Shown: piece after piece, positions 36,187 through 59,539 of the stretch | Layout of the letters: each line of letters begins with the position of its first letter | Position numbering within the stretch: position 1 is the stretch's first letter | Assembly (NCBI RefSeq): GCF_003628145.1 | Contig: NZ_RBZV01000005.1 | Span: 186,001-250,000 of the forward strand | DNA: 64,000 bases | Reading direction: 5' to 3' | From: Trinickia fusca | GTDB taxonomy: Bacteria > Pseudomonadota > Gammaproteobacteria > Burkholderiales > Burkholderiaceae | The notes under the pieces: generated by a model | Told to the model about the DNA's origin: nothing | Databases searched by the model: none | The model's input: only the letters and a program-made list of their open reading frames with translations | Position numbers and translations under genes: made by a program

Positions 36187-37608
36187 ATGACACAGGCCGC
36201 GCCTTCGGCGACGACTAGAGACTTGATCACGGCAGCCGTCGCATCCTACGAGAAACCTGAGGATCGCGCCGTGATGGGCGCTCAGTGGGAGCAGATTCCA
36301 CTTAACAAGATTCTGAAAGACAACCCTTCTTTGGAGAAGAAATTCGACCGAGTCGGTTTTCATGGACAAGTCAACGTCAACATGAATACCGGCGAGATCA
36401 TCATTGCCGATCGCGGTACCGCCAATGCGAAAAATTTGTACACCGATGCTCAGCTCGCGCTTCACCTGTCCACGAACGCACAGCCATTGGCCGACGAGTT
36501 TGCTCGACTGAGCTTGAAGGCGGCCGAGGAGAAGCTTGCCACGAGAGGCGTGAAGCCCAGTGCCGTCTATGTGACGGGGCATTCGCTCGGTGGCTACGAG
36601 TCGCAAGGGCAAACCGTCATGCTGAGTACTGCCAAGGATGAAGCAGGGAAGCCGCTTTTACCGGCCGACGTGAAGCTCGTTAATCTGTCGATCGATGCAC
36701 CCGGTATTGCACGGCTGGCTGACAAGGGCGACAGTTCACGTTATTCGAGCTACAACCTTTCGGCTCAGGCCGACGGCGTGCATCTGGCCGGCGGAAGTCA
36801 CCTGAAGGGCACGCAAGAGTTCACCGTGCCTGTCGGCCCGACCGTGGCCTCGACGGCGGGCCTGGTGGGGGCCGGAGTGGCGGTAACAGTGGCGACCGAT
36901 GGCGCTGGTGCATCGGCCGGTGCGGGGCTCATCAAGAAGGGCGTCCAAAACGAGTTGCAGGCGCACTCGAGCAAGATGGTGATGGACTTCGTCAACAAGA
37001 CTGCCTTGTCCGATCAGATCGTGGTCGATCTCGGGCGTGTACCGAAGGATCAGGTGCAGGCGATGATGAAGCAGCCGCGTGTGCAGGCGCCTGAGCCCGT
37101 TGCGCCTGCCTGCGTGGCGCCTGCGGCAGCGGCTCCTGCTGCTGCGCAAGCTCAGGCTCAACCGCATGCCAGCGTCGTGACGAACGCGACGGCTCACGAA
37201 GCCGCGGCAACGAAGCACGAGGCGTCGCATACGGCTACGGAGCAGCATAAGGCGGCAGGTGCTCATGAAAGTGCGCGCACGCATGCTGCCGAGCATGAAG
37301 AGCATCATCACCATCAGCAGCACCACCATCACGGCCATGCACATCAGCACGAGCATGAACAAGCGCATTCGCAGGAGCAAGCGCATGAGCATGGCCACGG
37401 TGATTCGGATCACGAAGCACATCATCATGAAGCGGACCACGAACAGCACCAGCACGATGGTCACAATGTGTACGGCTTTGATGGGAACGGCAGCATGAGT
37501 CCCGATTTGGCGGGGGGCGGCGATGCCCAGCACTCGGCGTATGTCGAACGCTGGCTCGAGGATCGCGGCTATGAGCCCCGGGCGCGCGTGGCGCCGAAGA
37601 TGGCTTGA
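36187..37608 (+). CDS. Lipase-like alpha/beta hydrolase with His-rich tail, candidate secreted effector
   Basis: 473 residues, no signal peptide. A class 3 lipase-type core: IIIADRGTANAKNL near residue 71 (the RGT oxyanion region), then VYVTGHSLGGYESQG with nucleophile Ser133, and possible Asp/His partners in NLSIDAPGIARL and ADGVHLAGGSH. Residues ~221-249 are a Gly/Ala/Val-rich hydrophobic stretch (ASTAGLVGAGVAVTVATDG). Residues ~350-430 are extremely His/Glu-rich (for example HEEHHHHQQHHHHGHAHQHE). A short conserved-looking tail follows. Lack of signal peptide, the membrane-active domain and its neighbours make it a good candidate type IVB effector (inference). Confidence 0.75.
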   Translation: MTQAAPSATTRDLITAAVASYEKPEDRAVMGAQWEQIPLNKILKDNPSLEKKFDRVGFHGQVNVNMNTGEIIIADRGTANAKNLYTDAQLALHLSTNAQPLADEFARLSLKAAEEKLATRGVKPSAVYVTGHSLGGYESQGQTVMLSTAKDEAGKPLLPADVKLVNLSIDAPGIARLADKGDSSRYSSYNLSAQADGVHLAGGSHLKGTQEFTVPVGPTVASTAGLVGAGVAVTVATDGAGASAGAGLIKKGVQNELQAHSSKMVMDFVNKTALSDQIVVDLGRVPKDQVQAMMKQPRVQAPEPVAPACVAPAAAAPAAAQAQAQPHASVVTNATAHEAAATKHEASHTATEQHKAAGAHESARTHAAEHEEHHHHQQHHHHGHAHQHEHEQAHSQEQAHEHGHGDSDHEAHHHEADHEQHQHDGHNVYGFDGNGSMSPDLAGGGDAQHSAYVERWLEDRGYEPRARVAPKMA

Positions 37609-37686: not shown

Positions 37687-39012
37687 CTACTTCTGGCAAT
37701 GCCAATAGGCGATACCGGGCCAAGTCAGCCGGCAACCGGTCATAAACCAGCCTCCGCCCGACCGGTAAATGTAGTTCCACTCGTCCTGCCCCATCCCGTT
37801 GATGCCGCTGATAGAGCAGGTCTTCCAGCTGGAGTCGGCGATCTGCTCGGTGAGACATCCATTCTCAGGCGGATTAAACGAACCGTTTATGAGTGAGGAG
37901 AAGCTGTTCGCTGCCGTCCACACACCTGATTGGCAAAACAGCGGGCCTGTGCCTGAGTTGCCGATCGCACCAGATGGCTGGCACGGCTGGCCCTCCGTTG
38001 CGCTACCGTTCGGTTCGACGTAGCTTGCGTTGACGTTGCCGAGCGCTGTGACGTTTCCAGAAGCGGTGACGTTACCGGACGCTGTGACGTTGCCTGAGGC
38101 CGTGACATTGCCGGATGAAGAAACATCGCCGTTCGCGGCGACGTTGCCGGCGGTCAGTGGAGCATAGGCAGAGCCTACTGAGTTGGTCAGCACAGTGCCG
38201 CCGTCTGCTTGCAGCACGGCTTGCGAACCGACGCCGATGAGCCTGCTGTTGCCAACCGTGACCGTAGGCGTGCCGCCAGGGTTCTGAACGTCGACGCCTT
38301 GAGCATTCACGTTGGTGGCGTTGACGGTGGTCGCGTTGACGTTGTTCGCGCTATCGATGTCGTGTGAACCCATGTTCAGCGCGGTCTGCATGGTATTGAG
38401 CTCAGGGTGGCCTGCGACGGCGACCCGATACAGATAGGCATTGTTCGACTGCACGTTCGTGAAGGCGAGCAACGAGGCGAGGTGTCCGCTACCGGGGTTC
38501 GTGTAGTTGGCGAGCGGCAGTTTCCATCCACCGTAAGCACCGTTGGCGTTGGCCGGGCTCATCGATGCATCGCCGGCTTGATTGGCGTAAGGCACGAAGC
38601 CCCCTTGTGCGCCGGCTTGTGCGGCGATCTGCACGAGTTGTCGGGTGTTGGAGATCGACGTGCCACCTTGCGAGGTGACGAGCGACTGCAGTTGTCCTGC
38701 CAAAGGCTGCAGCACTTGCAGTTGCCACGTTTGTCCGAAGACGTTGCTGGGGGAGAAGCCATTGGGCAGATACCCGGCAGCGATCAGCATGGCGGGAGTG
38801 ATGGTAACGGGCGCGGTGGCTGTCGCGAGCGCGGCGATGGTCGTGCCGTTGTCCTGCACGTACTGCTGGGCAGCCTTATCGAACGTCATCATCTGACTGG
38901 CCGTGGCGGCGGTTTGCACGTTCGTCACACCGAGCTTGGCCCAAGTGGTGAAGCCTGCTACCCCGATCATCGAAAGCGTGAGCGCCACGATGTATCCAAG
39001 AATTGCGTCCAT
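37687..39012 (-). CDS. pilV: PilV-type pilus tip adhesin, array copy 8 (distal)
   Basis: 441 residues. The N-terminal hydrophobic pilin helix and the shared shaft (AGYLPNGFSPSNVFGQTW, TRQLVQIAAQAGAQGGFVPY) are followed by the NVNATTVNATNVNAQGVDVQ repeat. Its linker is the longest of the array, with SGNVTA-type hexapeptides repeated about five times (bases ~38020-38125). After the conserved GTGPLFCQSGVW comes a unique 76-residue tip with several Cys ending YWHCQK. Start at MDAILG (39012) rather than the longer frame because all copies agree there and AAAGAAAACA-type purine sequence precedes it. No own operator; 189 bases behind copy 7. Confidence 0.87.
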   Translation of the reverse strand: MDAILGYIVALTLSMIGVAGFTTWAKLGVTNVQTAATASQMMTFDKAAQQYVQDNGTTIAALATATAPVTITPAMLIAAGYLPNGFSPSNVFGQTWQLQVLQPLAGQLQSLVTSQGGTSISNTRQLVQIAAQAGAQGGFVPYANQAGDASMSPANANGAYGGWKLPLANYTNPGSGHLASLLAFTNVQSNNAYLYRVAVAGHPELNTMQTALNMGSHDIDSANNVNATTVNATNVNAQGVDVQNPGGTPTVTVGNSRLIGVGSQAVLQADGGTVLTNSVGSAYAPLTAGNVAANGDVSSSGNVTASGNVTASGNVTASGNVTALGNVNASYVEPNGSATEGQPCQPSGAIGNSGTGPLFCQSGVWTAANSFSSLINGSFNPPENGCLTEQIADSSWKTCSISGINGMGQDEWNYIYRSGGGWFMTGCRLTWPGIAYWHCQK

Positions 39013-39201
39013 TGTTTTCTTTCCTTGTAGTTGAACGACATGATCGTTGTCATGCGTGCGGGTGATTGCACGGTCATTCAAAAAGGAAAGGCGGTGGACC
39101 TCTGGCTAGTGGCGCATGAGTTCGCATAACAGCTCAGACATTGGCTGCTATCGATTCATTCCCAATCGGAGAGCCGGCGCGATGATCTCGACGCCGGTGA
39201 A

Positions 39202-40071
39202 TCAAGTCGTATTAAAGAACGAAGCCTGCCGGCTTACGTCCCCGCGTCCGGCGTGTCGAAACAGTTGGCCCACACCTGGCGAGCCGGGACCACTGATGAG
39301 CTTGCCGTTGCCGACCACGACGGTGGGCGTGCCACCGGGGTTCTGAACGTTGACGCCTTGGGCATTGACGTTGGTGGCGTTGACGGTCGCAGCGTTGACG
39401 TTGTTTGCACTATTGATGTCGTGCGAGCCCATGTTCAACGCGGTTTGCATGGTATTGAGTTCAGGGTGGCCCGGTACGGCGACACGGTACAGATAGGCGT
39501 TGCTCGACTGCACGTTCGTGAAGGCGAGCAACGAGGCCAAGTGCCCGCTGCCAGGGTTCGTGTAGTTGGCGAGCGGCAGTTTCCATCCGCCGTAAGCGCC
39601 GTTCGCGTTGGTGGGGCTCATCGACGCATCGCCGGCTTGATTGGTGTAAGGCACGAAGCCGCCTTGTGCACCGGCTTGCGCGGCGATCTGCACGAGCTGC
39701 CGAGTGTTGGTGATCGGTGTGCCGCCTTGTGAGGTGACGAGCGATTGCAGTTGTCCTGCCGAAGGCTGTAGCACCTGCAATTGCCAAATCTGGCCGAAGA
39801 CGTTGCTGGGGGAGAAGCCGTTGGGCAGATACCCGGCAGCGATCAGCATCGCGGGTGTGACGGTGACGGGAGCAGTGGCCGTCGCGAGCGCGGCGATGGT
39901 CGAGCCGTTGTCCTGCACGTACTGCTGAGCGGCTTTATCGAACGTCAGCATCTGGCCGGCGGTAGCCGCCGTTTGCACGTTCGCTACGCCGAGCCTGGCC
40001 CAGGTGGTGAAGCCTGCTACGCCGATCATCGACAGCGTGAGCGCCACGATGTACCCAAGGATTGCATCCAT
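39202..40071 (-). CDS. pilV: PilV-type protein lacking its tip, array copy 7 (truncated)
   Basis: 289 residues. Identical in build to its neighbours through NVNAQGVNVQNPGGTP and GNGKLI, then departs into an unrelated 30-residue end (GPGSPGVGQLFRHAGRGDVS) with no linker, no FCQSGVW motif and no tip. This looks like a deletion that fused the shaft to downstream sequence. The frame stays open, so a tipless pilin-like protein could still be made and might cap or block the pilus. It has its own promoter/operator at 40148. Confidence 0.75.
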   Translation of the reverse strand: MDAILGYIVALTLSMIGVAGFTTWARLGVANVQTAATAGQMLTFDKAAQQYVQDNGSTIAALATATAPVTVTPAMLIAAGYLPNGFSPSNVFGQIWQLQVLQPSAGQLQSLVTSQGGTPITNTRQLVQIAAQAGAQGGFVPYTNQAGDASMSPTNANGAYGGWKLPLANYTNPGSGHLASLLAFTNVQSSNAYLYRVAVPGHPELNTMQTALNMGSHDINSANNVNAATVNATNVNAQGVNVQNPGGTPTVVVGNGKLISGPGSPGVGQLFRHAGRGDVSRQASFFNTT

Positions 40072-40147
40072 TGTTTTTCCTTTAATTGAGGGGATCTGCG
40101 ACGGCGGCATATCCTGAAGAGACACGTACTCACCGACTCTTTAGAAT

Positions 40148-40165
40148 GTATCGTTATATTGATAC
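40148..40165 (-). promoter_or_regulatory. Operator of pilV copy 7 (site 5)
   Basis: GTATCGTTATATTGATAC. On the minus strand the -10 TATCAA starts at the second operator base, with a weak -35 TATACA 17 bases upstream. 77 bases before the start codon. Confidence 0.65.
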
Positions 40166-40281
40166 GAAAAATGTACAGAATTGTATAGTGCGCTCGGTCA
40201 TGCCGTTCACCTGCGCACGTGACCTACGGCGAGAGCGGGGAGTGCGCGCGACGGCGTACTCAAGAAAGGAGGGGTGACTGT

Positions 40282-40320
40282 CCTGATCGATGCGGACGAT
40301 GCATTGAGGCATCGATCAGG
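40282..40320 (-). terminator. Palindrome after pilV copy 6
   Basis: CCTGATCGATGC and GCATCGATCAGG, a perfect 12-bp stem with 15-base loop. The same stem sequence follows copies 2 and 5, with variants after 3 and 4. No T run. Confidence 0.6.
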
Positions 40321-40359
40321 ATTACTTCAGATCTGTGCTAAGCCGCTACCCGGTTCTTC

Positions 40360-41601
40360 TCATTGGAATCGCGCACAAACCAATTGATTCATATATCCCG
40401 TATCCCCGGACATGTGAGACGTGCAGCCGGCAAATACGTCACCGGATTGCTGAGACGCGGGGTTGTTGAAGACCGTACTAAGGCACGAATATGTACCACT
40501 TGGTACCACGATAGACGTTGCCGACATCGCCGCGTATCCGGGCGGGCAGTATCGCGTTGTCTCAACGCCCCACGTTTCGAGCCATTGAAGCACCTGCGTG
40601 TCCGGAATGGTGTTGAATAGCGCTGGTTGCCACACGCCGGATTTGCAAAAGATTGGACCGGTACCCGACTTGGCCATCGTGCCGTTCGGGGCGCATGCTT
40701 GGCCAGCGGCGACAATGCCATTGGGCTGGATGTAATTCCCGGCGACCGTGCCATCGGAGCTGATATCGCCCGCGCTGAGGGGCGCGGAGCTTCCCGCGGA
40801 GGTAGTCAGGACGGTGCCGCCGTCCGCTTGCAGGATGGCTTGCGAGCCCACGCTTGTCAGTTTGGTGTTGCCGACCATGACAGTAGGCGTGCCATTGGGG
40901 TTTTGAACGTCGACACCTGTGGCATTCACGTTGGCTGCGTTATCAACGTCGTGGGTGCCCATGTTCAACGCGGTTTGCATGGTATTGAGTTCGGGATGGC
41001 CCGGTACGGCGACACGGTATAGATAGGCGTTGCTCGACTGCATGTTCGTGAAGGCGAGCAACGAGGCCAAGTGCCCGCTGCCAGGGTTCGTGTAGTTGGC
41101 GAGCGGCAGTTTCCATCCGCCGTAAGCGCCGTTCGCGGTGGTGGGGCTCATCGACGCATCGCCGGCTTGATTGGCGTAAGGCACGAAGCCGCCTTGGGCC
41201 CCAGCCTGTGCGGCGATCTGCACGAGTTGTCGGGTGTTCGAGATCGGCGTGCCGCCTTGCGAGGTGACGAGCGACTGCAATTGCCCTGCTGAAGGCTGTA
41301 GCACTTGCAGTTGCCAAGTCTGGCCGAAGACGTTGGTGGGCGAGAAGCCATTGGGCAGATACCCGGCAGCGATCAGCATGGCGGGAGTGATGGTGACGGG
41401 AGCGGTGGCTGTCGCGAGCGCGGCGATGGTCGAGCCGTTGTCCTGCACGTATTGCTGAGCGGCTTTATCGAACGTGAGCATCTGGCCGGCGGTAGCCGCC
41501 GTTTGCACGTTCGCTACGCCAAGCCTGGCCCAGGTGGTGAAGCCTGCTACGCCGAGCATCGATAGCGTGAGTGCCACGATGTACCCAAGAATTGCATCCA
41601 T
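40360..41601 (-). CDS. pilV: PilV-type pilus tip adhesin, array copy 6
   Basis: 413 residues. Shared shaft, then a short linker without hexapeptide repeats (APLSAGDISSDGTVAGNYIQP) and the motif KSGTGPIFCKSGVW. The unique 89-residue tip has four Cys (TTRYCPPGY, GTYSCLST, FAGCTSH, LVCARFQ). The start at 41601 follows AAAGGAGAAAACA, a clear ribosome site; the frame extends 14 codons upstream through that site. Own operator at 41681. The linker form AGNYxQPNG is shared with copy 2. Confidence 0.88.
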   Translation of the reverse strand: MDAILGYIVALTLSMLGVAGFTTWARLGVANVQTAATAGQMLTFDKAAQQYVQDNGSTIAALATATAPVTITPAMLIAAGYLPNGFSPTNVFGQTWQLQVLQPSAGQLQSLVTSQGGTPISNTRQLVQIAAQAGAQGGFVPYANQAGDASMSPTTANGAYGGWKLPLANYTNPGSGHLASLLAFTNMQSSNAYLYRVAVPGHPELNTMQTALNMGTHDVDNAANVNATGVDVQNPNGTPTVMVGNTKLTSVGSQAILQADGGTVLTTSAGSSAPLSAGDISSDGTVAGNYIQPNGIVAAGQACAPNGTMAKSGTGPIFCKSGVWQPALFNTIPDTQVLQWLETWGVETTRYCPPGYAAMSATSIVVPSGTYSCLSTVFNNPASQQSGDVFAGCTSHMSGDTGYMNQLVCARFQ

Positions 41602-41680
41602 TGTTTTCTCCTTTGGTTGAGGGGGAATCTGCGACAACGACATCTCCTGAAGAGACGCGTATTCACAGATTCATTTGAAT

Positions 41681-41698
41681 GTATCGTTGCATTGATAC
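41681..41698 (-). promoter_or_regulatory. Operator of pilV copy 6 (site 6)
   Basis: GTATCGTTGCATTGATAC. Minus-strand -10 TATCAA inside it, -35 CAGACA 17 bases upstream. 80 bases before the start codon. Confidence 0.68.
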
Positions 41699-41816
41699 GG
41701 AAAATATACGGAAGTGTCTGAATTGTTCCGTCATGCCGTGCACCTGCGCGCACGTGACCTATGGGGAGAGCGGGGAGTGCACGCGGCGGCGTGCTCGGGA
41801 AAGGAGGGGTGACTGT

Positions 41817-41855
41817 CCTGATCGATGCGGACGATGCATTGAGGCATCGATCAGG
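41817..41855 (-). terminator. Palindrome after pilV copy 5
   Basis: CCTGATCGATGC / GCATCGATCAGG, identical to the one after copy 6, and embedded in a ~100-base intergenic block shared with 40231-40330. The 387-base gap 41602-41988 contains this palindrome and operator site 6 and nothing else recognised. Confidence 0.6.
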
Positions 41856-41988
41856 ATTACTTCAGGACATCGACCAAAGCAGGATCGTCGAGGCAGGGAG
41901 GAGTTTGAGCAGGAAGTGTCTTCGTCAGCATCGCCAGCGATGCGTCATCCAGGCGGGCATTCGATCTTGTTCTTGTCCGCGGCGCACA

Positions 41989-43197
41989 TCACTTGGCACA
42001 AACGGCGTGGGCAATGCAGGTGCCGGTGTTACCTTCGTCGCAGAAGTATCCGTTGCTCGTCGGGGCGCAGGTGCGTGGCCCGATCTCGCGTCCGTCCCCG
42101 CCGCGGCTCATGTCGCAACTTCCTCCAGTCAATGTGTACGAAGCCGGGCACGTGGCCACGCCCGACGGCTGCCAGTCACCCGACGAGACGGTAAGAGTGG
42201 TCACCGAGCCGGCAGATTGCCATACGCCCGATTGGCAGAACAACGGACCGTTGCCTGAATTGCCGATCAGCCCGTCTGACGGACAGGTGGTGCCGGCCAC
42301 AGCGTGACCATAGGGCTGAAGATATGAGGCATAAAGCATTGAGTAGTTACTGGCATTGGCATTGGTCACGACCGTGCCGTTGTCGCTTTGCAGGTAGATC
42401 TGCTGAAGCCCGCTCTGGTTGACGATCGACGCATTGCCGACGGTGACGGTGGGCGTGCCGTTACCGTTTTGCACGTTGACGCCTTGAGCATTGACGTTGG
42501 TAGCGTTGACGGTTGTAGCGTTGACGTTGTTCGCACTATCGATGTCGTGTGCCCCCATGTTCAGCGCCGTCTGCATGGTGTTGAGCTCGGGATGGCCGGG
42601 TATGGTGACACGATACAGGTAGGCGTTGGTTGATTGCACGTTGGTGAAGGCGAGCAGCGAGGCGAGGTGCCCGCTGCCAGGGTTCGCGTAGTTCGTCAGC
42701 GCCATACGCCATCCTCCATAGGCACCATTGGCGTTGGCGGGAGTCATCGACGCATCGCCGGCTTGATTGGTGTAAGGCACGAAGCCGCCTTGTGCACCGG
42801 CTTGCGCGGCGATCTGAACGAGCTGCCGAGTATTCGAGATCGGCGTGCCGCCTTGCGAGGTAACGAGCGATTGCAGTTGTCCTGCCGAAGGCTGGAGTAC
42901 CTGCAGCTGCCAAGTCTGTCCGAAGACATTGCTGGGGGAGAAGCCGTTGGGCAGATAGCCGGCAGCGATCAGCATGGCCGGGGTGACGGTGACGGGCGCG
43001 GTGGCTGTCGCGAGCGCGGCGATGGTCGAGCCGTTGTCCTGCACATACTGCTGTGCTGCTTTATCGAACGTGAGCATCTGGCCGGCGGTAGCTGCCGTTT
43101 GCACGTTCGCTACGCCGAGCCTGGCCCAGGTGGTGAAGCCTGCTACCCCGATCATCGACAGCGTGAGCGCCACGATGTACCCAAGAATTGCATCCAT
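41989..43197 (-). CDS. pilV: PilV-type pilus tip adhesin, array copy 5
   Basis: 402 residues. Shared shaft, with MALTNYANPG instead of LPLANYTNPG in one segment (as in copy 3). The linker is the shortest and most divergent (NASIVNQSGLQQIYLQSDNG, SNYSMLYASYLQPYGHA). After NSGNGPLFCQSGVW comes a 76-residue tip with about six Cys, including ATCPASYTLTGGSCDM, which resembles the copy 4 tip (AACPSGYNLTGGGYQL). AAAGGAGAAAACA precedes the start at 43197; the open frame upstream is not used by analogy. Own operator at 43277. Confidence 0.88.
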   Translation of the reverse strand: MDAILGYIVALTLSMIGVAGFTTWARLGVANVQTAATAGQMLTFDKAAQQYVQDNGSTIAALATATAPVTVTPAMLIAAGYLPNGFSPSNVFGQTWQLQVLQPSAGQLQSLVTSQGGTPISNTRQLVQIAAQAGAQGGFVPYTNQAGDASMTPANANGAYGGWRMALTNYANPGSGHLASLLAFTNVQSTNAYLYRVTIPGHPELNTMQTALNMGAHDIDSANNVNATTVNATNVNAQGVNVQNGNGTPTVTVGNASIVNQSGLQQIYLQSDNGTVVTNANASNYSMLYASYLQPYGHAVAGTTCPSDGLIGNSGNGPLFCQSGVWQSAGSVTTLTVSSGDWQPSGVATCPASYTLTGGSCDMSRGGDGREIGPRTCAPTSNGYFCDEGNTGTCIAHAVCAK

Positions 43198-43276
43198 TGT
43201 TTTCTCCTTTGGTTGAGGGTGAATCTGCGATAACGACATCTCCTGACGAGACGCGTGTTCACGAACTAATAAAAAT

Positions 43277-43294
43277 GTATCGTTGTATTGATAC
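43277..43294 (-). promoter_or_regulatory. Operator of pilV copy 5 (site 7)
   Basis: GTATCGTTGTATTGATAC. Minus-strand -10 TATCAA inside it and a good -35 TAGACA 17 bases upstream. 80 bases before the start codon. Confidence 0.7.
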
Positions 43295-43413
43295 GAAATA
43301 CAGAACGAATTGTCTAACGCATTTCGCACATGATGTGCAGTTGCACGCGTGTGACTTCCAACGAGAACGAGGAGAGCGCGCGACGGCGTGCTCGAGAAAG
43401 GAGAGGTGACTGT

Positions 43414-43452
43414 CCTGATCGACGCGTCCGATGCATTGAGGCATCGATCAGG
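43414..43452 (-). terminator. Palindrome after pilV copy 4
   Basis: CCTGATCGACGC / GCATCGATCAGG, 12-bp stem with one G-U pair, same family as the others. Confidence 0.58.
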
Positions 43453-43502
43453 GCTACTTCAGTTCATCGCCAAAGGACAAGGCGTCGAGGTATCGCTTAC
43501 CG

Positions 43503-44819
43503 CTAGCCGGAGCAGACGGCATAGGGAACGAATTGCGAGTACCCCGGGAATCCTCCCGGGTGCACAAGCCAGCCTGTATAGCGCCCCTGCGCCGGATCGA
43601 AATACGGCATGCTCACATCCGGGGCGTTTCCATCAGCATTGAACCCACTATTCGGCGCATAGTTCGTCAACTGATATCCACCGCCTGTGAGGTTATAGCC
43701 ACTCGGGCATGCAGCAACAGAGGTGTAAGGACCACTCGACGAATCGCCATAAGCTGGTGATCCAGATACCACCATCGAATTTGTCGACAAGCTTCTCCAC
43801 ATGCCCGATTGGCAAAACAGAGGGCCGGTGCCCGAGTTGGCGATCATGCCGGGCTTCTGGCAAGGCTGACCAGCTACCGCGCCGCCGGTCGGCTGAAGGT
43901 AGCTCGCATTGACGTTGCCGTTGGCGTCGACGTCACCGTTCGCCATGACGTTGCCTGCGGTAAGCGGGGCGTAGGCACTGCCGGCAGAGTTGGTCAGCAC
44001 GGTGCCGCCGTCCGCTTGCAAGACGGCTTGTGAGCCCACGCCTGCCAGCTTGGTATTGCCTATTGTGACCGTAGGAGCGCCACTGGCGTTCTGAACGTCG
44101 ACGCCTTGAGCATTCACGTTGGTGGCGTTGACGGTCGTCGCGTTGACATTGTTCGCACTGTCGATGTCGTGTGTGCCCATGTTCAACGCCGTTTGCATGG
44201 TGTTGAGCTCGGGGTGGCCTGCGACGGCGACGCGGTACAGATAGGCGTTGTTCGACTGCACGTTCGTGAAGGCGAGCAGCGAAGCAAGATGCCCGCTGCC
44301 AGGGTTCGTGTAGTTGGCGAGCGGCAGTTTCCATCCACCGTAAGCACCGTTGGCGTTGGCCGGGCTCATCGATGCATCGCCGGCTTGATTGGCGTAAGGC
44401 ACGAAGCCACCTTGCGCGCCGGCTTGTGCGGCGATCTGCACGAGTTGCCGGGTGTTCGAGATCGGCGTGCCGCCTTGCGAGGTGACGAGCGACTGTAGTT
44501 GTCCTGCCGAAGGCTGGAGCACCTGCAATTGCCAAATCTGTCCGAAGACGTTGCTGGGGGAGAAGCCGTTGGGCAGGTAGCCGGCAGCGATCAGCATGGC
44601 CGGGGTGACGGTGACGGGAGCGGTGGCTGTGGCGAGCGCGGCGATGGTCGAGCCATTGTCCTGCACGTACTGCTGGGCAGCCTTATCGAATGTCAGCATC
44701 TGGCTGGCCGTGGCGGCGGTTTGCACGTTCGCCACGCCGAGCCTGGCCCAGGTGGTAAAGCCTGCTACCCCGATCATCGATAGCGTGAGCGCCACGATGT
44801 ATCCAAGAATTGCGTCCAT
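43503..44819 (-). CDS. pilV: PilV-type pilus tip adhesin, array copy 4
   Basis: 438 residues. Shared shaft, linker with GDVDANGNVNASYLQP (one to two hexapeptides), motif NSGTGPLFCQSGMW, then the longest tip (97 residues) with AACPSGYNLTGGGYQL and ending PYAVCSG. The tip is Tyr/Gly-rich with fewer Cys than the others. No GTATC-type operator upstream; the preceding 582 bases hold a palindrome and AT-rich sequence. Confidence 0.88.
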   Translation of the reverse strand: MDAILGYIVALTLSMIGVAGFTTWARLGVANVQTAATASQMLTFDKAAQQYVQDNGSTIAALATATAPVTVTPAMLIAAGYLPNGFSPSNVFGQIWQLQVLQPSAGQLQSLVTSQGGTPISNTRQLVQIAAQAGAQGGFVPYANQAGDASMSPANANGAYGGWKLPLANYTNPGSGHLASLLAFTNVQSNNAYLYRVAVAGHPELNTMQTALNMGTHDIDSANNVNATTVNATNVNAQGVDVQNASGAPTVTIGNTKLAGVGSQAVLQADGGTVLTNSAGSAYAPLTAGNVMANGDVDANGNVNASYLQPTGGAVAGQPCQKPGMIANSGTGPLFCQSGMWRSLSTNSMVVSGSPAYGDSSSGPYTSVAACPSGYNLTGGGYQLTNYAPNSGFNADGNAPDVSMPYFDPAQGRYTGWLVHPGGFPGYSQFVPYAVCSG

Positions 44820-45401
44820 TGTTTTCTTTCCTTGTGATTGAACGAGTTCGCTTCAGCGCCTTCTGCGCCAAAACAGGAATTGATGCGGCCGCGCGCGACC
44901 CTGTGCGCGTAGCGGCGTCTTGCAAGAGAGAGAACGGAGGGGGCGCGCGAGCGTGCCGCATAAAGGTGGGCTTAGCGGGCGGACGAAATGTCCGACACCG
45001 GGGCACGAGACGGGTACGTGAGCGAGGAGGGGGACGCTATCGGAAACGCCAGCTCAAACGGAGCTTCGCGGGCGGCGTTGAGTCAACAACGCGCTGAGGC
45101 ATGCGTTCCGTCATCGATGCTTAAATTGGAGGAGCCTTTGTCGGGAAATGATGATGTCAGTATATTCGGATCGCTAATCGAATAGACGAAGGGAAAGTGA
45201 CGGCAATATAAGAGAAGAGAAATTTGATTGGTGCGCAAAAATCCTGATCGGCCGATTAACCGATCGAGGCCGATCAGGATGAGCGTGATTGCCTGCCTGT
45301 TATTGTCTCTGCGAGAAAGAGAATGTGCCGCATGAGCTAGGAATGCCGGCAACACAAAGGCCTCACTCGCAGAGCGCGTTTTTATTCCATGGGTGAACCG
45401 A
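44820..45401. other. Largest gap in the pilV array, with a 13-bp palindrome
   Basis: 582 bases without a convincing gene (a 65-codon plus-strand frame at 44988 has no support). It contains ATCCTGATCGGCC / GGCCGATCAGGAT at 45241-45280, a perfect terminator-like palindrome after copy 3, a second inverted repeat CTCTGCGAG (45307) / CTCGCAGAG (45366), and an AT-rich tract around 45120-45240. No island operator is present. Confidence 0.55.
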
Positions 45402-46676
45402 TCAGCTTATGCAGAAGTGAGTCTCATAATACGAGTCCCATGGGCTGTATGCGTAGGATTGGCCCGTCATGTACCCAAAGTCTGCCGTTCCGCCAGGGCA
45501 ACTGCAGTTGCCTGTGATGGGGTTAGGTTGGCAGTATTCTTGATAACCTGGGATCAGTATGCCGCTTGGCCAGTATTTGCGAAGGACGTATTGCCCCCCT
45601 GTCGAACCGGCCTGTTTCCAGATATGCGATTGGCAAAACAGAGGGCCATTACCCGAGTTGCCGATCATGCCGTTGGTCGGGCAGGGTTGACCGGATGCTG
45701 CCCCCCCATTTGGCTGCACGTAATTGGCGTTGACATTGCCGGAAGCGGTGACGTCGCCGGACGCCGTGATGTTGCCAGAAGAGGAGACGTCGCCGTTCGC
45801 GGCGATGCTGCCGGCGGTCAGCGGTGCATAGGCGGATCCCGTTGAGTTGGTCAATACCGTGCCGCCATCCGCTTGCAGGACGGCTTGTGAACCGACGCCG
45901 ATGAGCTTGCTGTTGCCGATCGTGACGGTGGGCGTACCGCCGGGGTTCTGAACGTCGACGCCTTGGGCATTGACGTTGTTGGCGTTGACGGTTGTCGCGT
46001 TGACGTTGTTTGCGCTATCGATGTCGTGTGCCCCCATATTCAACGCCGTTTGCATGGTGTTGAGCTCGGGGTGTCCTGCGACGGCAACGCGATATAGATA
46101 GGCGTTGTTCGATTGCACGTTGGTGAACGCAAGCAGCGAGGCGAGGTGTCCGCTGCCGGGGTTCGCGTAGTTCGTCAGTGCGATACGCCATCCTCCATAG
46201 GCACCGTTGGCGTTAGCGGGAGTCATCGACGCATCGCCGGCTTGATTGGCGTAAGGCACGAAGCCACCTTGGGCGCCGGCTTGGGCGGCGATCTGCACGA
46301 GTTGTCGGGCGTTGGAGATCGGTGTGCCGCCTTGCGAGGTGACGAGCGATTGCAGTTGTCCTGCCGCAGGCTGCAGCACTTGCAGTTGCCAGGTCTGCCC
46401 GAAGACGTTGCTGGGGGAGAAGCCGTTGGGGAGATACCCGGCGGCTATCAGCATCGCAGGCGTGACGGTGACAGGAGAAGTGGCTGTCGCGAGCGCGGCG
46501 ATGGTCGAGCCGTTGTCCTGCACGTACTGCTGAGCGGCTTTATCGAACGTCAGCATTTGACCGGCAGTGGCTGCCGTTTGTACGTTCGCTACGCCAAGCC
46601 TGGCCCAGGTAGTAAAGCCTGCTACCCCGATCATCGAAAGCGTAAGCGCGACGATGTATCCAAGAATCGCGTCCAT
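45402..46676 (-). CDS. pilV: PilV-type pilus tip adhesin, array copy 3
   Basis: 424 residues. Shared shaft (IALTNYANPG variant), linker with GDVSSSGNITASGDVTASGN (about four hexapeptides), motif NSGNGPLFCQSHIW, and a 71-residue tip with Cys in YQEYCQPNP, GNCSCPGG and HFCIS. Start at 46676. Its operator is site 8 at 46788, 112 bases upstream. Confidence 0.88.
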   Translation of the reverse strand: MDAILGYIVALTLSMIGVAGFTTWARLGVANVQTAATAGQMLTFDKAAQQYVQDNGSTIAALATATSPVTVTPAMLIAAGYLPNGFSPSNVFGQTWQLQVLQPAAGQLQSLVTSQGGTPISNARQLVQIAAQAGAQGGFVPYANQAGDASMTPANANGAYGGWRIALTNYANPGSGHLASLLAFTNVQSNNAYLYRVAVAGHPELNTMQTALNMGAHDIDSANNVNATTVNANNVNAQGVDVQNPGGTPTVTIGNSKLIGVGSQAVLQADGGTVLTNSTGSAYAPLTAGSIAANGDVSSSGNITASGDVTASGNVNANYVQPNGGAASGQPCPTNGMIGNSGNGPLFCQSHIWKQAGSTGGQYVLRKYWPSGILIPGYQEYCQPNPITGNCSCPGGTADFGYMTGQSYAYSPWDSYYETHFCIS

Positions 46677-46787
46677 TGTTTCTTTCCTTAAGTTGAGTGA
46701 CGTCTATGACGAAAAGTCTCTTGCGGAGACAGAAGGTCGATGACCGTGCCGCCGTGGACGGTGGCTCGATCAGTCGATTTAAATAAT

Positions 46788-46805
46788 GTATCGATACATC
46801 GATAC
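46788..46805 (-). promoter_or_regulatory. Operator of pilV copy 3 (site 8)
   Basis: GTATCGATACATCGATAC, the most symmetric copy. Minus-strand -10 TATCGA inside it; -35 poor. The 394-base gap 46677-47070 holds this and the palindrome at 46920 only. Confidence 0.65.
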
Positions 46806-46919
46806 AAAATACAAAGCGGTTTTTTTAACTCGCTCTCACGCGTCAGCTATTCGTGACGATGAGATGCAGTGAGGGGAGTCCGCCGCGCGTGAGTGGCGAT
46901 ACGCGGCGACTGTGAAGAT

Positions 46920-46953
46920 CCTGATCGATGCGTGTAACGCAGCATCGATCAGG
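46920..46953 (-). terminator. Palindrome after pilV copy 2
   Basis: CCTGATCGATGC / GCATCGATCAGG, 12-bp perfect stem, same sequence as after copies 5 and 6. Confidence 0.6.
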
Positions 46954-47070
46954 TTGACTTTGCGTCAGCTGACAGGCTTATTGCGTTTCGAAGAATCGGT
47001 CACGCTTGCCTGAGTGTGTTGGGGAGGCCGGTACCTCTTCCGAGGTGCTGAAATCAGCCGTGGTGTGGAC

Positions 47071-48306
47071 TTACTTGGAGCAAGAAACGACCGTCAACCC
47101 ATTTCCACCCGTGCCCCAGGGGTGATTCCCGTTGATGCCTTGCACCTCGGTAACGACGCCGAACCTAAAGTTCTGCGAATAGCAAAAGCGGTGGCCGCAT
47201 GTGATCGACCATGCGGCGTAGTCGTACCCCGGTGGATTCGGGTCGCCGTTGGCTACGCAGGCGGCATCAACCGCAGCTGCCGTGGTCGCGATATCCTGGA
47301 AGGTAGCGGCCAACGACCATACCCCAGCCTGGCAAAACACCGGCACGTTGCCCGACTTGGCAATCGAGCCGTCCGGGGCGCATGACTGGCCGACGGTGAC
47401 AGCGCCATTGGGCTGGAGGTAATTTCCGGCGACTGTACCATTGGACGTGATATCGCCCGAGTTGAGCGGGGCGTAGGCGGACCCGGCAGTGTTGGTCAGC
47501 GCGGTGCCGCCGTCGGCTTGCAGGACGGCTTGCGAACCGACGCCGATGAGCCTGCTGTTGCCGACCGTGACGGTAGGCATACCGTTGGGATTCTGAACGT
47601 CGACCCCTTGGGCATTGACGTTCGTCGCGTTGACGTTGTTCGCACTATCGATGTCTTGTGCGCCCATGTTCAGCGCGGTCTGCATCGTGTTGAGCTCGGG
47701 GTGCCCCGCCACGGCGACGCGATACAGATAGGCGTTGTTCGACTGCACGTTCGTGAAGGCGAGTAACGAGGCGAGGTGTCCGCTACCGGGGTTCGTGTAG
47801 TTGGCGAGCGGCAGTCTCCATCCACCGTAAGCACCGTTCGCGTTGGCGGGAGTCATCGACGCATCGCCGGCTTGATTGGCGTAGGGCACGAAACCACCTT
47901 GCGCGCCGGCTTGTGCGGCGATCTGCACGAGCTGCCGGGTATTGGAGATCGGTGCACCGCCTTGCGAGGTAACGAGCGATTGCAGTTGTCCTGCCAAAGG
48001 CTGCAGCACTTGCAGTTGCCACGTTTGTCCGAAGACGTTGCTGGGGGAGAAGCCGTTGGGCAGATACCCGGCAGCGATCAGCATCGCGGATGTGACGGTG
48101 ACGGGAGAAGTGGCCGTAGCGATGGTGGCGATGGTCGTGCCGTTGTCCTGCACGTACTGCTGGGCAGCCTTATCGAACGTCATCATCTGACTGGCCGTGG
48201 CGGCCGTTTGCACGTTTGCGACACCGGACCTGGCCCAGGTGGTGAACCCTGCTACCCCGATCATCGAAAGCGTGAGCGCCATGATGTACCCAAGAATTGC
48301 ATCCAT
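47071..48306 (-). CDS. pilV: PilV-type pilus tip adhesin, array copy 2
   Basis: 411 residues. Begins MDAILGYIMALTLSMIG; shared shaft, short linker (APLNSGDITSNGTVAGNYLQP, like copy 6), motif KSGNVPVFCQAGVW (the most divergent version), and an 81-residue tip with Cys in DAACVANG, SITCGHRFC and VVSCSK. The frame continues 15 codons upstream of 48306, but GAAAGAAAAG precedes the chosen ATG. No own operator, so it is probably read through from copy 1. Confidence 0.87.
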   Translation of the reverse strand: MDAILGYIMALTLSMIGVAGFTTWARSGVANVQTAATASQMMTFDKAAQQYVQDNGTTIATIATATSPVTVTSAMLIAAGYLPNGFSPSNVFGQTWQLQVLQPLAGQLQSLVTSQGGAPISNTRQLVQIAAQAGAQGGFVPYANQAGDASMTPANANGAYGGWRLPLANYTNPGSGHLASLLAFTNVQSNNAYLYRVAVAGHPELNTMQTALNMGAQDIDSANNVNATNVNAQGVDVQNPNGMPTVTVGNSRLIGVGSQAVLQADGGTALTNTAGSAYAPLNSGDITSNGTVAGNYLQPNGAVTVGQSCAPDGSIAKSGNVPVFCQAGVWSLAATFQDIATTAAAVDAACVANGDPNPPGYDYAAWSITCGHRFCYSQNFRFGVVTEVQGINGNHPWGTGGNGLTVVSCSK

Positions 48307-48484
48307 TGCTTTTCTTTCCTCTGAGAGAGCGACCTTCGCTTCGGCGAGCATTGCGCCGAAGCACTAAGCTGCGCACGGCCGCTATCGGCGGCCGATTCGA
48401 AGCAAGGAGGAAAGGTGGAGCGCGGGCAGGCGGCGAGCGCCAGGTATCAAGCCGCTTCGGAGCAATGCTTGGCTGGAAGCAACG

Positions 48485-48509
48485 GCCATTCGACGGACGA
48501 GCGAATGGC
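48485..48509 (-). terminator. Hairpin after pilV copy 1
   Basis: GCCATTCG / CGAATGGC, 8-bp perfect stem, in the 271-base gap between copies 1 and 2. Weaker than and unrelated to the other array palindromes. Confidence 0.45.
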
Positions 48510-48577
48510 GATGGGGTGGGCGTCGGCTTGAAGTACGTGCCCCCCGATAGGTTGGCCAAGTCCGGTTGATAACCGCA

Positions 48578-49906
48578 TCAGTGGACCTGGAGGCAGACGG
48601 CGTAGGCTTGAGCCGGGTTGTCGACATGGTTGGAGCCAAAACAGTTGGCATACCAGCCGTTACCCGAAGGCATGGACGAATGCAGCCAGGCGATGGTCCC
48701 ATCCTGGCAGTTGCCGCCGCCGCTGATCACAATTTCGTTCGCGTTGCAGGAGGCGTACCCCGCGTCGGGATAGTTGCCGTCCGGGTTGATGATATTTCCG
48801 AAGGTGCTATAGACAACGCGCGTGGACGCCGATGCCATGCTGGTCCCCCACACGTTCGACTGACAGAAGAGCGGCCCGCTGCCCGACGTTGCGATGAGAC
48901 CGTTCGGCGCGCACGGTTGTCCAACCGTCGCAACGCCATTCGGCTGCACGTAGTTGGCGTTGACGTTGCCGGAAGCCGTGACGTTACCGGACGCAGTGAT
49001 GTTGCCGGAAGACGTGATGTCGCCGTTCGCGCCGATGCTGCCGGCGGTCAGCGGGGCATAGGCGGACCCGGTAGAGTTGGTCAGCACCGTGCCACCATCG
49101 GCTTGCAGAACGGCTTGTGAGCCCAGGCCGATGAGCTTGTTGTTGCCGACGGTGACGACCGGCGTGCCGCCAGGGTTTTGAACGTCGACGCCGTGGGCAT
49201 TGACGTTGGTGGCGTTGACGGTCGTCGCGTTGACGTTGTTTGCGCTATTGATGTCTTGCGCCCCCATGTTCAACGCGGTCTGCATGGTATTGAGCTCGGG
49301 GTGCCCCGCGATGGCCACGCGGTACAGATAGCCGTTGTTCGATTGAACGTTGGTGAAGGTCAGCAGCGAGGCGAGGTGTCCGCTGCCGGGGTTCGTATAG
49401 TTGGCGAGCGGTAGCTTCCATCCGCCGTATGCGCCGTTGGCGTTGACGGGCGTCATCGACCCATCGCCAGCTTGATTGGCGTAGGGCACGAAGCCGCCTT
49501 GGGCACCGGCCTGCGCGGCGATCTGCGCGAGTTGCCGGGTATTGGAGATCGGTGTGCCGCCTTGCGAGGTGACGAGCGATTGCAACTGGCCGGGCGCCGG
49601 CTGCAAGACTTGCAGCTCCCATGTCTGGCCGAATGCATTGGTGGGGGCGAAGCCGTTGGGCAAGTAGCCTGCGGCCGCGAGCATGGCCGTCGTGACGGTG
49701 ACAGGGGCGTTCGATGTCGCCGCGCCGGCGATCGCCGTGCCATTGTCCTGCACATATTGCTGTGCCGCTTTGTCGAACGTGAGCATCTGGCTCGCGGTGG
49801 CAGCGGTTTGCACGTTCGTGACGCCGAGCCTGGCCCAAGTCGTAAAGCCTGCGACGCCGATCATCGATAGTGTGAGTGCCACCATGTAGCCGAGAATCGC
49901 ATCCAT
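48578..49906 (-). CDS. pilV: PilV-type pilus tip adhesin, array copy 1 (pil-operon copy)
   Basis: 442 residues. The most divergent shaft of the set (AIAGAATSNAPVTVTTAMLAA, FAPTNAFGQTWELQV), suggesting it is the ancestral or least-converted copy. Linker with GDITSSGNITASGNVTASGN (about four hexapeptides), motif TSGSGPLFCQSNVW, then an 89-residue tip with Cys in YASCNANEIV, GGNCQDG, YANCFGS and AVCLQVH. It closes the dot-pil operon, 62 bases after the PilM-like gene, so it is the copy expected to be expressed with the pilus machinery. Confidence 0.9.
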   Translation of the reverse strand: MDAILGYMVALTLSMIGVAGFTTWARLGVTNVQTAATASQMLTFDKAAQQYVQDNGTAIAGAATSNAPVTVTTAMLAAAGYLPNGFAPTNAFGQTWELQVLQPAPGQLQSLVTSQGGTPISNTRQLAQIAAQAGAQGGFVPYANQAGDGSMTPVNANGAYGGWKLPLANYTNPGSGHLASLLTFTNVQSNNGYLYRVAIAGHPELNTMQTALNMGAQDINSANNVNATTVNATNVNAHGVDVQNPGGTPVVTVGNNKLIGLGSQAVLQADGGTVLTNSTGSAYAPLTAGSIGANGDITSSGNITASGNVTASGNVNANYVQPNGVATVGQPCAPNGLIATSGSGPLFCQSNVWGTSMASASTRVVYSTFGNIINPDGNYPDAGYASCNANEIVISGGGNCQDGTIAWLHSSMPSGNGWYANCFGSNHVDNPAQAYAVCLQVH

Positions 49907-49968: not shown

Positions 49969-50448
49969 TCAAGGCGTGACCTGTACCCACTCGAGCAACG
50001 CGCCGACCGGAAGCGAAGCCGGCACGGCAGACACGTCCCCGAATTGGACGTTGACCGCCTGGCCCTGGCTCTGCACGCGATACCAGGCCGCGCTGCGTTG
50101 GGTGTCCGTCATCATCTGTCCCGCCGCGCCGCCGACGACGGGCGCGTAGGCGTACACGTTGCGGGCGCCGCCTGCCGCGGGCGTCGTCATGCACACGGCA
50201 CCGACCGGCGTGGTCGCGCCGGTCGGCATTGCGACCGTCAGCGACGCGCTGATCGCGCCCGGCGAGGCGATGGCCGTGTCGAGACACGCGGCCGCGAACG
50301 CTTCGACGCGCTGCGCCGACACGATCTCGAAGTTCTCCATCTGGCCCGGCTTGCCTGCGCCGGCCACGGCCAACGCGAGCTGGTTCATCTGCGCCGCGAC
50401 GCCGATGAAGAACAACACGACCATGACGGGCAGGGCGAAGAAGGCCAT
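49969..50448 (-). CDS. Small single-pass membrane protein, PilM-like
   Basis: 159 residues: an N-terminal helix (AFFALPVMVVLFFIGVAAQ) followed by a periplasmic domain (ENFEIVSAQRVEAFAAACLDT, GALLEWVQVTP) with two Cys. Size and layout match IncI PilM, a ~145-residue inner-membrane component of thin-pilus assembly, though usually at the other end of the operon; a minor pilin is the alternative. It begins immediately after the ATPase stop codon. Confidence 0.6.
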   Translation of the reverse strand: MAFFALPVMVVLFFIGVAAQMNQLALAVAGAGKPGQMENFEIVSAQRVEAFAAACLDTAIASPGAISASLTVAMPTGATTPVGAVCMTTPAAGGARNVYAYAPVVGGAAGQMMTDTQRSAAWYRVQSQGQAVNVQFGDVSAVPASLPVGALLEWVQVTP

Positions 50449-51438
50449 TTAGATGCGCCCCGATTCGACGGTCGCGCTCACGATGCGGCGCTGACGATCG
50501 ATTTCCGACGACAGCTGCGAGAAGTCGCCTTTGCGCAGCGTCGCGCGAATGGCCGTTTCGTTGGTCGCGCCCGCGATGACGAGCGGCGTGACCGTGATCA
50601 CGCGACGCTCCGAGCCGCCGTAGCTGGCCATCCGCATGCTCTGGTGAATGACGGCGCACAGGGCATCGGCGAGAAAGCTCACGTCGAGTCCCGACTCGCG
50701 CACCATGTTCTTCATCCGCTCGAGTGCCGTCTGCACGTCGTTCGCGTGCAGTGTCGACGAAACGAGGTGTCCGCTCGTGCCCGCGAGTACGGCTTGTGCG
50801 GCGGCTTCGCGCGTCCGGATCTCGCCGAGCATGATGAGGTTCGGTGCCGCACGCAGCAGCCGATGAATGGTGGTGCCGAACTCGCTGTCGTTGTGCACTT
50901 CAGTCTGATAGCAGGTACCGACGACCGAACCCGACCCATGCCGTCCTTGCAGCACGATTTCGACGGGGTTCTCGACGGTGCAGGCCGTGCCGCCGAAGCG
51001 CTTCAAGCGCTCGAGCATCCACGAGGCCTGGCTCATCGATTTGCCGTCGCCGGTGGCGCCCGTCCACAGCACGAGGCCGCCTTTGGCGAATGCATCGGAG
51101 AGCATCGCGTCGAGCAGCCGCGGCGGGTAGCCGAGCCGACTGTATTCGATGGGGCGATCGAGCAGGCGGCGGCAGATGTAGACGTCGCCTTCCAGCGTTT
51201 CGATGCGCTGCACGCGCAGCCCGATGCCTTCCCAGTCGGCACGAAAGTCGAGCCCTGTGCGGTGTTCCTGCAGACGGCGACGCAGCGCCAGCGATTCGTC
51301 GAGCGAAAGATCGACGAGCGAGCGCCGCTCCTTGTCGCTGGGGCTCGTCTTGAACCATGCGCCGTCCGGTTCGAGATAGAGATCCGAGAAGGGCAGGTCC
51401 TTCAGCGCGACTCCTACCAATGATTCGTCGTATGCCAT
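50449..51438 (-). CDS. PilT-like secretion ATPase of the type IVb pilus
   Basis: 329 residues. Walker A is WTGATGDGKSMSQ near residue 130, with NLIMLGEIRTREAA as Walker B and the His-box SSTLHANDVQTALERM. This is a GspE/PilT-family hexameric ATPase without the N-terminal loading domain or Zn motif, close in layout to retraction ATPases. In IncI R64 the gene called pilT codes a transglycosylase instead, so I give no symbol. Start at 51438 (MAYDESLV) or 51486; neither has a good ribosome site. Lies between pilS and the PilM-like gene. Confidence 0.83.
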   Translation of the reverse strand: MAYDESLVGVALKDLPFSDLYLEPDGAWFKTSPSDKERRSLVDLSLDESLALRRRLQEHRTGLDFRADWEGIGLRVQRIETLEGDVYICRRLLDRPIEYSRLGYPPRLLDAMLSDAFAKGGLVLWTGATGDGKSMSQASWMLERLKRFGGTACTVENPVEIVLQGRHGSGSVVGTCYQTEVHNDSEFGTTIHRLLRAAPNLIMLGEIRTREAAAQAVLAGTSGHLVSSTLHANDVQTALERMKNMVRESGLDVSFLADALCAVIHQSMRMASYGGSERRVITVTPLVIAGATNETAIRATLRKGDFSQLSSEIDRQRRIVSATVESGRI

Positions 51439-51514
51439 CGAGCGTGTCGTGATGCGTGAAGCGTCTTGAAGCAACGGCGCGCACACGAGCGGCGCGCGTC
51501 GTCGTGCGGTGCGG

Positions 51515-52015
51515 TTACTGGAACGTGAGGATGATCTTGGGCGTACCGGCGCAAGCGTTCGCGGCGGACACCGCGTCGGGCTGGTTGGCCTGCGAGAAGG
51601 TCGTGCCGTTCACCACCAGCGAGACGTAGTCCGTCAAGCTGGTGAGGACGTGCGAGCACTGCTCGACCGTCTCGGACCCGCCGCCGCCGAACGTGATCTG
51701 GCCTTCGGTATTCCCCGCGACTGGGGCGAACTGGACCGCATTGCCCCAGGCATCGAAGATGCCGCCGGCGCGCACCATGTCGCCGGGGATGATGCCCGCG
51801 TTTACGAGCGGCGTCGCATTGGCCGTCGTGAAGTTCGTATAGCCATTGTTGTTCTGCGAGAACTGCGCGCGGGCATTCGTGGCGACCTGTGTCATGTCCG
51901 TCACCACGGTGCTGCTCTTGTTGGTGGCGAACGCTTTGTAGCCGGCGAGGCCGACCCCTGCAAGCGCGAGCAGGCCCAGCACGATCGCGACGACGCGACC
52001 TAAAATCCCATCCAT
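51515..52015 (-). CDS. pilS: PilS-type major type IVb pilin
   Basis: 166 residues. It opens MDGILGRVVAIVLGLLALAG, a very short leader with a Gly before the hydrophobic helix, then a pilin globular domain with two Cys (EQCSHVLTSLTDYVSLVV, ANACAGTPKIIL) that can form the C-terminal disulfide typical of type IVb pilins. The same MDxILG start is seen in all PilV copies. Major subunit because of position after pilR and abundance of small residues. No Glu at position +5 of the likely mature chain. Confidence 0.85.
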   Translation of the reverse strand: MDGILGRVVAIVLGLLALAGVGLAGYKAFATNKSSTVVTDMTQVATNARAQFSQNNNGYTNFTTANATPLVNAGIIPGDMVRAGGIFDAWGNAVQFAPVAGNTEGQITFGGGGSETVEQCSHVLTSLTDYVSLVVNGTTFSQANQPDAVSAANACAGTPKIILTFQ

Positions 52016-59273: not shown

Positions 59274-59539
59274 TCGTAGTATCTCCGGTGATGCCACCAG
59301 GCGCGCCCGTGGATCGCCGTGCCGCGCAGCGTGTGGCGAATGGCGCGCAACAGCACGGGCAGCGTGTAGCCCTTGCGTTCCATCAGGTAGAAGCCGACGA
59401 TCGCGAGGAGGGCCGCGGCAAATGTCCAGATGCGCGGAAAGTAAAGCGCGATCAGGATCGGGAAATAGCCGCGTGCATCGATGCCGAGAATGCGCGGCGT
59501 CAGCGACGCATCGCGCCAGATTGAGCGACGCACTTTCAT
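59270..59539 (-). CDS. icmT: IcmT/TraK, small Dot/Icm membrane protein
   Basis: 89 residues. The WRDASLTPRILGIDARGYFP start matches the IcmT family pattern WRDASKTPxFxxxDAR, followed by two helices (ILIALYFPRIWTFAAALLAIV) and an aromatic-basic C-terminus. In Legionella IcmT is needed for Dot/Icm function and pore activity; IncI TraK is the counterpart. It overlaps both neighbours by ATGA (dotB upstream, pilL downstream), joining the Dot and Pil halves of the operon. Confidence 0.9.
   Translation of the reverse strand: MKVRRSIWRDASLTPRILGIDARGYFPILIALYFPRIWTFAAALLAIVGFYLMERKGYTLPVLLRAIRHTLRGTAIHGRAWWHHRRYYE

Follow-up and report, generated by a model that had tools for sequence, protein, structure and literature searches.

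Within the 64,000 nt stretch of Trinickia fusca DNA examined here (the window; RefSeq assembly GCF_003628145.1, contig NZ_RBZV01000005.1, positions 186,001 to 250,000), eight genes for PilV-type pilus adhesins were found in tandem on one strand, at positions 37687-49906 of the window and 1059-1857 bp apart. The classic example of a single adhesin gene whose tip can be switched is the shufflon, in which plasmids keep the tips as invertible cassettes. In the array, different tips are carried on constant shafts and each tip has its own gene, as the preliminary description of a tip repertoire had it. It is probable that the array is a fixed repertoire of targeting adhesins for an adjoining type IVB secretion system (T4BSS) that would deliver protein.

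Under this proposal each tip of the shufflon pool would have been given its own complete shaft gene, with site-specific inversion no longer used. Several tip variants could then be produced, either together or under separate control, and may be displayed on one type IVb pilus, allowing the cell to bind several kinds of surface. The pilus would serve as the targeting arm of a Dot/Icm-type type IV secretion system (T4SS), which would deliver the adjoining lipase-like protein, and not DNA, into bound bacteria. A wider and more tentative proposal is that a protein-injecting T4BSS took over the adhesins of a shufflon and made them a fixed repertoire of co-existing genes, with several tips present at once, targets chosen by regulated expression and the pilus as an exchangeable aiming module.

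The pilV array and the relatives of its tips

The eight copies, numbered from the pil genes outwards, are as follows.

48578-49906, - strand: pilV c1, next gene downstream after the pil operon; tip 48578-48847, 89 amino acids (aa); PF04917 (Shufflon_N) E 1e-34
47071-48306, - strand: pilV c2; tip 47071-47316, 81 aa, with no relative found
45402-46676, - strand: pilV c3; tip 45402-45617, 71 aa
43503-44819, - strand: pilV c4; tip 43503-43796, 97 aa
41989-43197, - strand: pilV c5; tip 41989-42219, 76 aa
40360-41601, - strand: pilV c6; tip 40360-40629, 89 aa
39202-40071, - strand: pilV c7; shaft only, tip lost
37687-39012, - strand: pilV c8; tip 37687-37917, 76 aa

The ATG preceding DAILGY was taken as the start of each gene (49906, 48306, 46676, 44819, 43197, 41601, 40071 and 39012), and an AGGA-containing stretch, a possible ribosome-binding site, lies upstream of each of the array copies. 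The assignment to PilV was borne out, as PF04917 is matched over its cut-off at the end of a type IVb pil cluster and a variable C-terminal tip stands behind a CQSGxW-type junction in seven of the eight copies. Near-identical shafts of ~270 residues with different C-termini of ~71-97 residues had been described for all eight genes. Their number and common strand stand, but near-identity covers only about the first 240 residues, whole shafts being 324-365 aa in the seven copies with tips, and the tips of 71-97 aa are confined to these seven. With c5 as reference, residues 1-215 are 86-96% identical and the tips 32-41% identical in six array copies and an orphan copy elsewhere in the genome; mean shaft DNA identity is 0.84-0.88 to codon 240 and then falls to 0.64-0.74 (windows of codons 241-360). 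As the c4 and c5 tips (E 0.002) and the c1 and c5 tips (E 0.043) are weakly alike, "different" is a safer word for the tips than "unrelated".

A Shufflon_N family search of the whole genome gave 10 matches, comprising the eight array copies and single matches on contigs C39 and C4, the latter of another class. The match on C39 is the orphan, a ninth full-length PilV gene outside the window (L010:8598-9911) with no other copy beside it. On one side it has formate-dehydrogenase-like genes and on the other a GNAT/fdhE/selA/selB-like group (all named by eye), and the corresponding position in two sister species holds LysR- and nitrilase-like genes instead. The other class comprises longer PilV-like proteins, with open frames of 541-670 aa; it is represented in 9 of the 11 Trinickia genomes, here at G000:C4:100040-100633.

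Searches of 72,556 plasmid records with the tips (E 1e-3) gave relatives for six of the eight tip types (seven in the array and the orphan), in 26 records for c8, 10 for c3, 6 for c4, 5 for c1, 4 for c5 and 2 for c6. The best match to the c3 tip (62.9%) is on a shufflon plasmid, the matches to c4 include an unannotated stretch adjoining an integrase, and the c5 tip is 57-69% identical in its four plasmid records and 59-73% identical in two other genomes. Many of the plasmid matches listed carry no annotated gene, as would be expected of silent cassettes, and an integrase is annotated at six of nine places with tip relatives that were read. One P. aeruginosa place (L119, pNY5530-NR1) is a very large shufflon-like stretch, with 17 sfx-like cores over ~5.4 kb and hardly any annotated genes.

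A single locus, in plasmid p2 of Pseudomonas koreensis P19E3, has an integrase and 17 sfx sites and matches the c8, c1, c6, c4, c5 and c3 tips and, weakly, the orphan tip (E-values here refer to a one-locus database); one of its cassettes is matched by both the c4 and the c5 tips. As most have relatives in plasmid shufflons, the array tips are, on these comparisons, members of the shufflon tip pool that are here fixed as full genes. When c5 was compared with G023, Burkholderia multivorans and Paraburkholderia phytofirmans PsJN, the tips were 60, 61 and 68% identical and the shafts 43, 35 and 31%. This better preservation of the tip than of the shaft between genera points to modules moving between shafts.

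The pilus operon, the secretion system and a candidate effector

The array follows a pil operon that adjoins genes of a T4SS.

49969-50448, - strand: small protein in the place of the minor pilin; without a Pfam match, retained in sister loci
50449-51486, - strand: second T2SSE-family ATPase, PilT-like
51515-52015, - strand: major pilin PilS (PF08805)
52050-53105, - strand: PilR (T2SSF)
53102-55681, - strand: PilQ, T2SSE ATPase; open frame overlapping pilO, true start probably further in
54886-56169, - strand: PilO (PF06864)
56171-56740, - strand: protein in the place of PilP; a single Pfam match, under the cut-off
56752-58479, - strand: PilN secretin
58476-59663, - strand: fusion of a TraK-like N-terminus and a TcpQ domain, joining the T4SS and pil modules
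59536-60726, - strand: TraJ ATPase of T4BSS
60648-61556, - strand: TraI-like
62557-63408, + strand: TraM / IcmL-DotI-like, below the NCBIfam cut-off; a traN match runs from 63928
22673-23785, + strand: TrbA-like
23792-24937, + strand: TrbB-like, thioredoxin domain
24944-27625, + strand: TrbC-like T4SS protein
32955-34169, + strand: TraW (NF033888 over cut-off)

A bactofilin gene (30636-31427) lies within the T4SS cluster and is kept in the sister genomes G006, G009, G001 and G003. When 42 proteins of the plasmid R64, of incompatibility group I (IncI), were compared with 98.5 kb around the window, matches were found for traH, I, J, K, M, N, O, U, W and Y, trbA, B and C, and pilN, Q, R, T and V. 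The adjoining T4SS is thus, by its sequence matches, IncI/Dot-Icm-like. The remaining 24 of the 42 proteins, including nikA, nikB, sog, nuc, excA, rci, pilO and pilS, had no match in the 98.5 kb; BLAST absence is weak evidence here, as pilO and pilS are among them though Pfam finds both.

Next to the array, on the opposite strand, are two genes of another kind.

36187-37608, + strand: lipase-like protein, candidate T4SS effector; GHSLGG seen by eye, no Pfam match
35025-36161, + strand: beta-propeller-like protein, candidate immunity partner; signal-like N-terminus by eye
Shared 45-residue C-terminal domain: in the proteins at window 36187-37608, L043:12356-13444 and 14042-15361, and L044:10271-11374 and 12030-13340

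The beta-propeller-like gene is kept next to the lipase gene in G006, G009, G001 and G003. The last 45 residues of the lipase-like protein recur, by alignment, on an unrelated type of hydrolase in sister loci, and this other type (L043:14042-15361) matches the Tle1-like family PF09994. A profile of the 45 residues gave nine matches in 5 of the 11 Trinickia genomes, which are the five in which this T4SS was observed, and eight of the nine lie inside the T4SS stretches read. We infer that this C-terminus is a candidate delivery (translocation) signal. By analogy with the T4BSS of Pseudomonas putida IsoF (PMC9519443), the lipase-like protein may be delivered into bacteria.

The same genes could belong to an ordinary conjugation adhesin set, that is, an integrated IncI-like system in which the tips recognise recipient cells. 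The Tra, Trb and several Pil matches to R64 are in keeping with this, and PilV variants of the plasmid TP114 are reported to determine its recipient range (PMC9045228). However, while the Tra/Trb T4SS proteins of an IncI-type mating-pair formation system (MPF_I) are present, its MOBP relaxase (PF03432, NikB) was not found in this genome, other relaxase classes not having been searched for. PF03432 occurs in 6 of the 11 genomes of the genus and never on T4SS contigs; two of the four sister species that bear the T4SS have one elsewhere. Together with the unmatched nikA, nikB, sog, nuc and excA, weak as BLAST evidence, this makes the conjugation set unlikely. The preliminary description had the tips recognise different partner cells; as PF03432 is absent from the genome, mating partners are doubtful, and targets of protein delivery are likelier.

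At the corresponding locus T. diaoshuihuensis (G006) has three such PilV genes and G009 has two, and both orientations occur. G001 has the T4SS and the lipase and lacks the pil operon between the lipase and traK/J genes, and in G003 the pil operon is divergent and includes a PilV-like open frame of 591 residues. In G001, only residues 4-131 of the TraK/TcpQ fusion were matched in the stretch read, which is without a pil operon. Across the sister species the T4SS is retained, whereas the pilus differs, is replaced by another or is missing; it thus seems to be an interchangeable component of this T4SS.

Across the family, 78 of 398 genomes gave a Shufflon_N match when no more than five candidates were scored per genome. 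In a search of 11 Trinickia genomes, one per species and free of the five-candidate limit, the large array was found in one; the genome next in rank had five PilV matches, of which three belong to this class and two to the longer one. A comparable tandem pilV array did not turn up among the papers listed in literature searches, though its absence is not thereby proven.

Selection, recombination and the tip junctions

The ratio of non-synonymous to synonymous substitution (dN/dS) over the shafts is 0.03-0.12, at synonymous divergence (dS) of 0.23-1.0, in all 36 pairs, c7 included. The shafts are under purifying selection and the copies are kept. As the dN/dS of the c7 shaft is still low, its tip was probably lost recently. 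Shafts c1 to c8 group with the orphan in a single clade that excludes the copies of sister species (support 91/94, just below the program's mark of 95), and the array is, by this tree, a lineage-specific expansion. The nearest partner of a copy switches along the shaft and globally significant identical tracts were found in 2 of 36 pairs, one of them c1/c3, indicating that array copies have recombined.

In the pilE/pilS system of Neisseria, as in the array, a constant part and variable ends occur in one locus. On that model c1 would be the expressed gene and c2 to c8 would be donors for gene conversion. The position of c1 next to the pil genes fits this, as do the switching of partners and the c1/c3 tract. 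However, the genes that would act as donors are full-length, have ribosome-binding sites and are under purifying selection; the array differs from the Neisseria arrangement in that seven of its eight copies are complete genes, with all shafts under selection. In addition, the c1 shaft diverges furthest from the rest (dS 0.74-1.0 to each of them), which disfavours conversion from donors to c1. Silent-cassette variation of this kind is thus distinctly improbable; of the recombination through shared shafts proposed earlier, the data indicate the exchange itself but do not support a continuing rewriting of the expressed gene.

Neutral tandem duplication, with functionless extra copies, is less probable again. 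It would account for the broken c7 and for the restriction of the large array to one of 11 genomes, but not for low dN/dS at high dS in every pair, and duplication alone does not produce complete differences between tips.

A plausible means of choosing among the copies is transcriptional switching, given an operator-like palindrome before four of them; hairpins follow five copies.

46785-46805, - strand: palindrome GTATCRATRNANCGATACATT, 129 bp upstream of the c3 ATG
43274-43294, - strand: palindrome GTATCRATRNANCGATACATT, 97 bp upstream of c5
41678-41698, - strand: palindrome GTATCRATRNANCGATACATT, 97 bp upstream of c6
40145-40165, - strand: palindrome GTATCRATRNANCGATACATT, 94 bp upstream of tipless c7
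40282-40320, no strand assigned: hairpin CCTGATCG...CGATCAGG, after c6
41817-41855 (after c5), 43414-43452 (after c4), 45243-45278 (after c3) and 46920-46953 (after c2): further CCTGATCG...CGATCAGG hairpins

With two mismatches allowed, GTATCRATRNANCGATACATT has no further site in the 6.1-Mb genome, a fifth match being the c3 site on the opposite strand, and it was found once, weakly, in ten sister genomes. As c5 to c7 share upstream homology that extends beyond the palindrome, the four sites are not four independent events.

In R64, which served as the comparison, there are seven perfect sfx cores encoding CQSGxW, and this peptide with few changes closes every tipped shaft of the array. The window contains five sfx-like 18-mers (at most three mismatches); each lies at a tip junction and they share one strand, and 3 of 100 shuffles reach that number. 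The closest, with one mismatch, is at the c8 junction (37918-37935, - strand), and the others begin at 40630, 42220, 43797 and 45618. Over eight junctions (seven in the array and the orphan), 23 mismatches to the sfx core were counted versus 26.4 expected (P 0.16) under a codon null in which the same peptides were encoded by synonymous codons sampled from those used in the copies, and 17 of the 23 are in third codon positions. Constraint for sfx is absent from the array junctions, and the resemblance does not go beyond the codon null. Ten shufflon-type loci gave 61 sites within two mismatches, of which 48 are perfect, 11 have one mismatch and 2 have two, a list that serves as a comparison and not as a test, as it was selected at two mismatches, includes two near-identical loci and leaves out the site-less locus L072.

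Three Phage_integrase matches are present in the genome, none on the contig of the array. An Rci-type query, the integrase of a Burkholderia contaminans shufflon, gave no match in this genome at E 1e-10, the only one of the 11 genomes of the genus without such a match, though this query also picks up other integrases. Separate fixed genes without an inversion system had been proposed and this was upheld, as an invertase gene and inverted, conserved sfx sites were looked for nearby and not found. A working shufflon served by a recombinase in trans, to which the five sfx-like 18-mers at junctions might have pointed, was therefore rejected as barely credible: no Rci-like gene was found, the sfx resemblance is within the codon null, and all junctions face one way, while Rci is reported to perform inversions only (PMC11852207).

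Several observations weigh against the array being a fixed targeting repertoire drawn from the shufflon pool. The c2 and orphan tips were without a match among the plasmid records, and a search of the 398 genomes of the family recovered the c2 tip from its own genome alone. Three of the nine places with tip relatives have no annotated integrase; PsJN has three perfect sfx cores and the P. aeruginosa stretch has 17 (at most one mismatch), and the B. multivorans place (L072) is without any sfx-like site. Descent of the junctions from sfx sites is not provable from their DNA, as the peptide alone accounts for the resemblance. Within Trinickia, c5 and G006a differ alike in shaft (69%) and tip (72%), so that the argument for tip exchange rests on the other genera. 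A model of the c5 tip, for which a resistin-like / PCSK9 C-terminal beta module was considered, had no Foldseek match at E 0.001. Consensus scans of the array gave no excess of sigma-70-type promoters (4 versus 4.2 expected) or of terminators (10 versus 11.8 expected). One match to the 45-residue C-terminus (L131, on another contig of G001) lies in 17 kb in which no T4SS gene was seen, and one of the eight inside T4SS stretches is weak (2e-8). Finally, the genome is a draft, BLAST absence counts for little, and the relaxase search covered one family.

Relation to known systems

The array shares with the IncI Rci/sfx shufflons of R64 and TP114 the PF04917 shaft, the CQSGxW junction, the tip modules and the location behind the other pil genes, but no rci was found, sfx sites are neither conserved nor inverted, and each tip is on a full-length gene. 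The P. koreensis P19E3 p2 locus matches seven of the eight tip types of the array and orphan, whereas its cassettes sit behind 17 perfect sfx cores and rearrange, with two rearranged forms resolved in reads according to the account of this shufflon in PMC6158609. The pil locus of PsJN plasmid pBPHYT01 (L071) also has a c5-type and then a c3-type tip, but the second is not on a full gene; its three sfx cores are direct, and no integrase is annotated in 10 kb. This locus is perhaps a stalled shufflon and a possible intermediate. The kib T4BSS of P. putida IsoF, which acts in contact-dependent killing, likewise places a Dot/Icm-type T4SS beside a candidate effector; the effector is a different one, and a term search of the main text of its paper (PMC9519443) gave neither "pilus" nor "PilV".

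With tips of the shufflon pool held as a permanent gene family in which no switch was found, the strategies of switching tips and of keeping all of them become directly comparable. If the T4SS does deliver the lipase-like protein, the choice of target by an injector would be encoded in a dedicated and exchangeable set of pilus tips.

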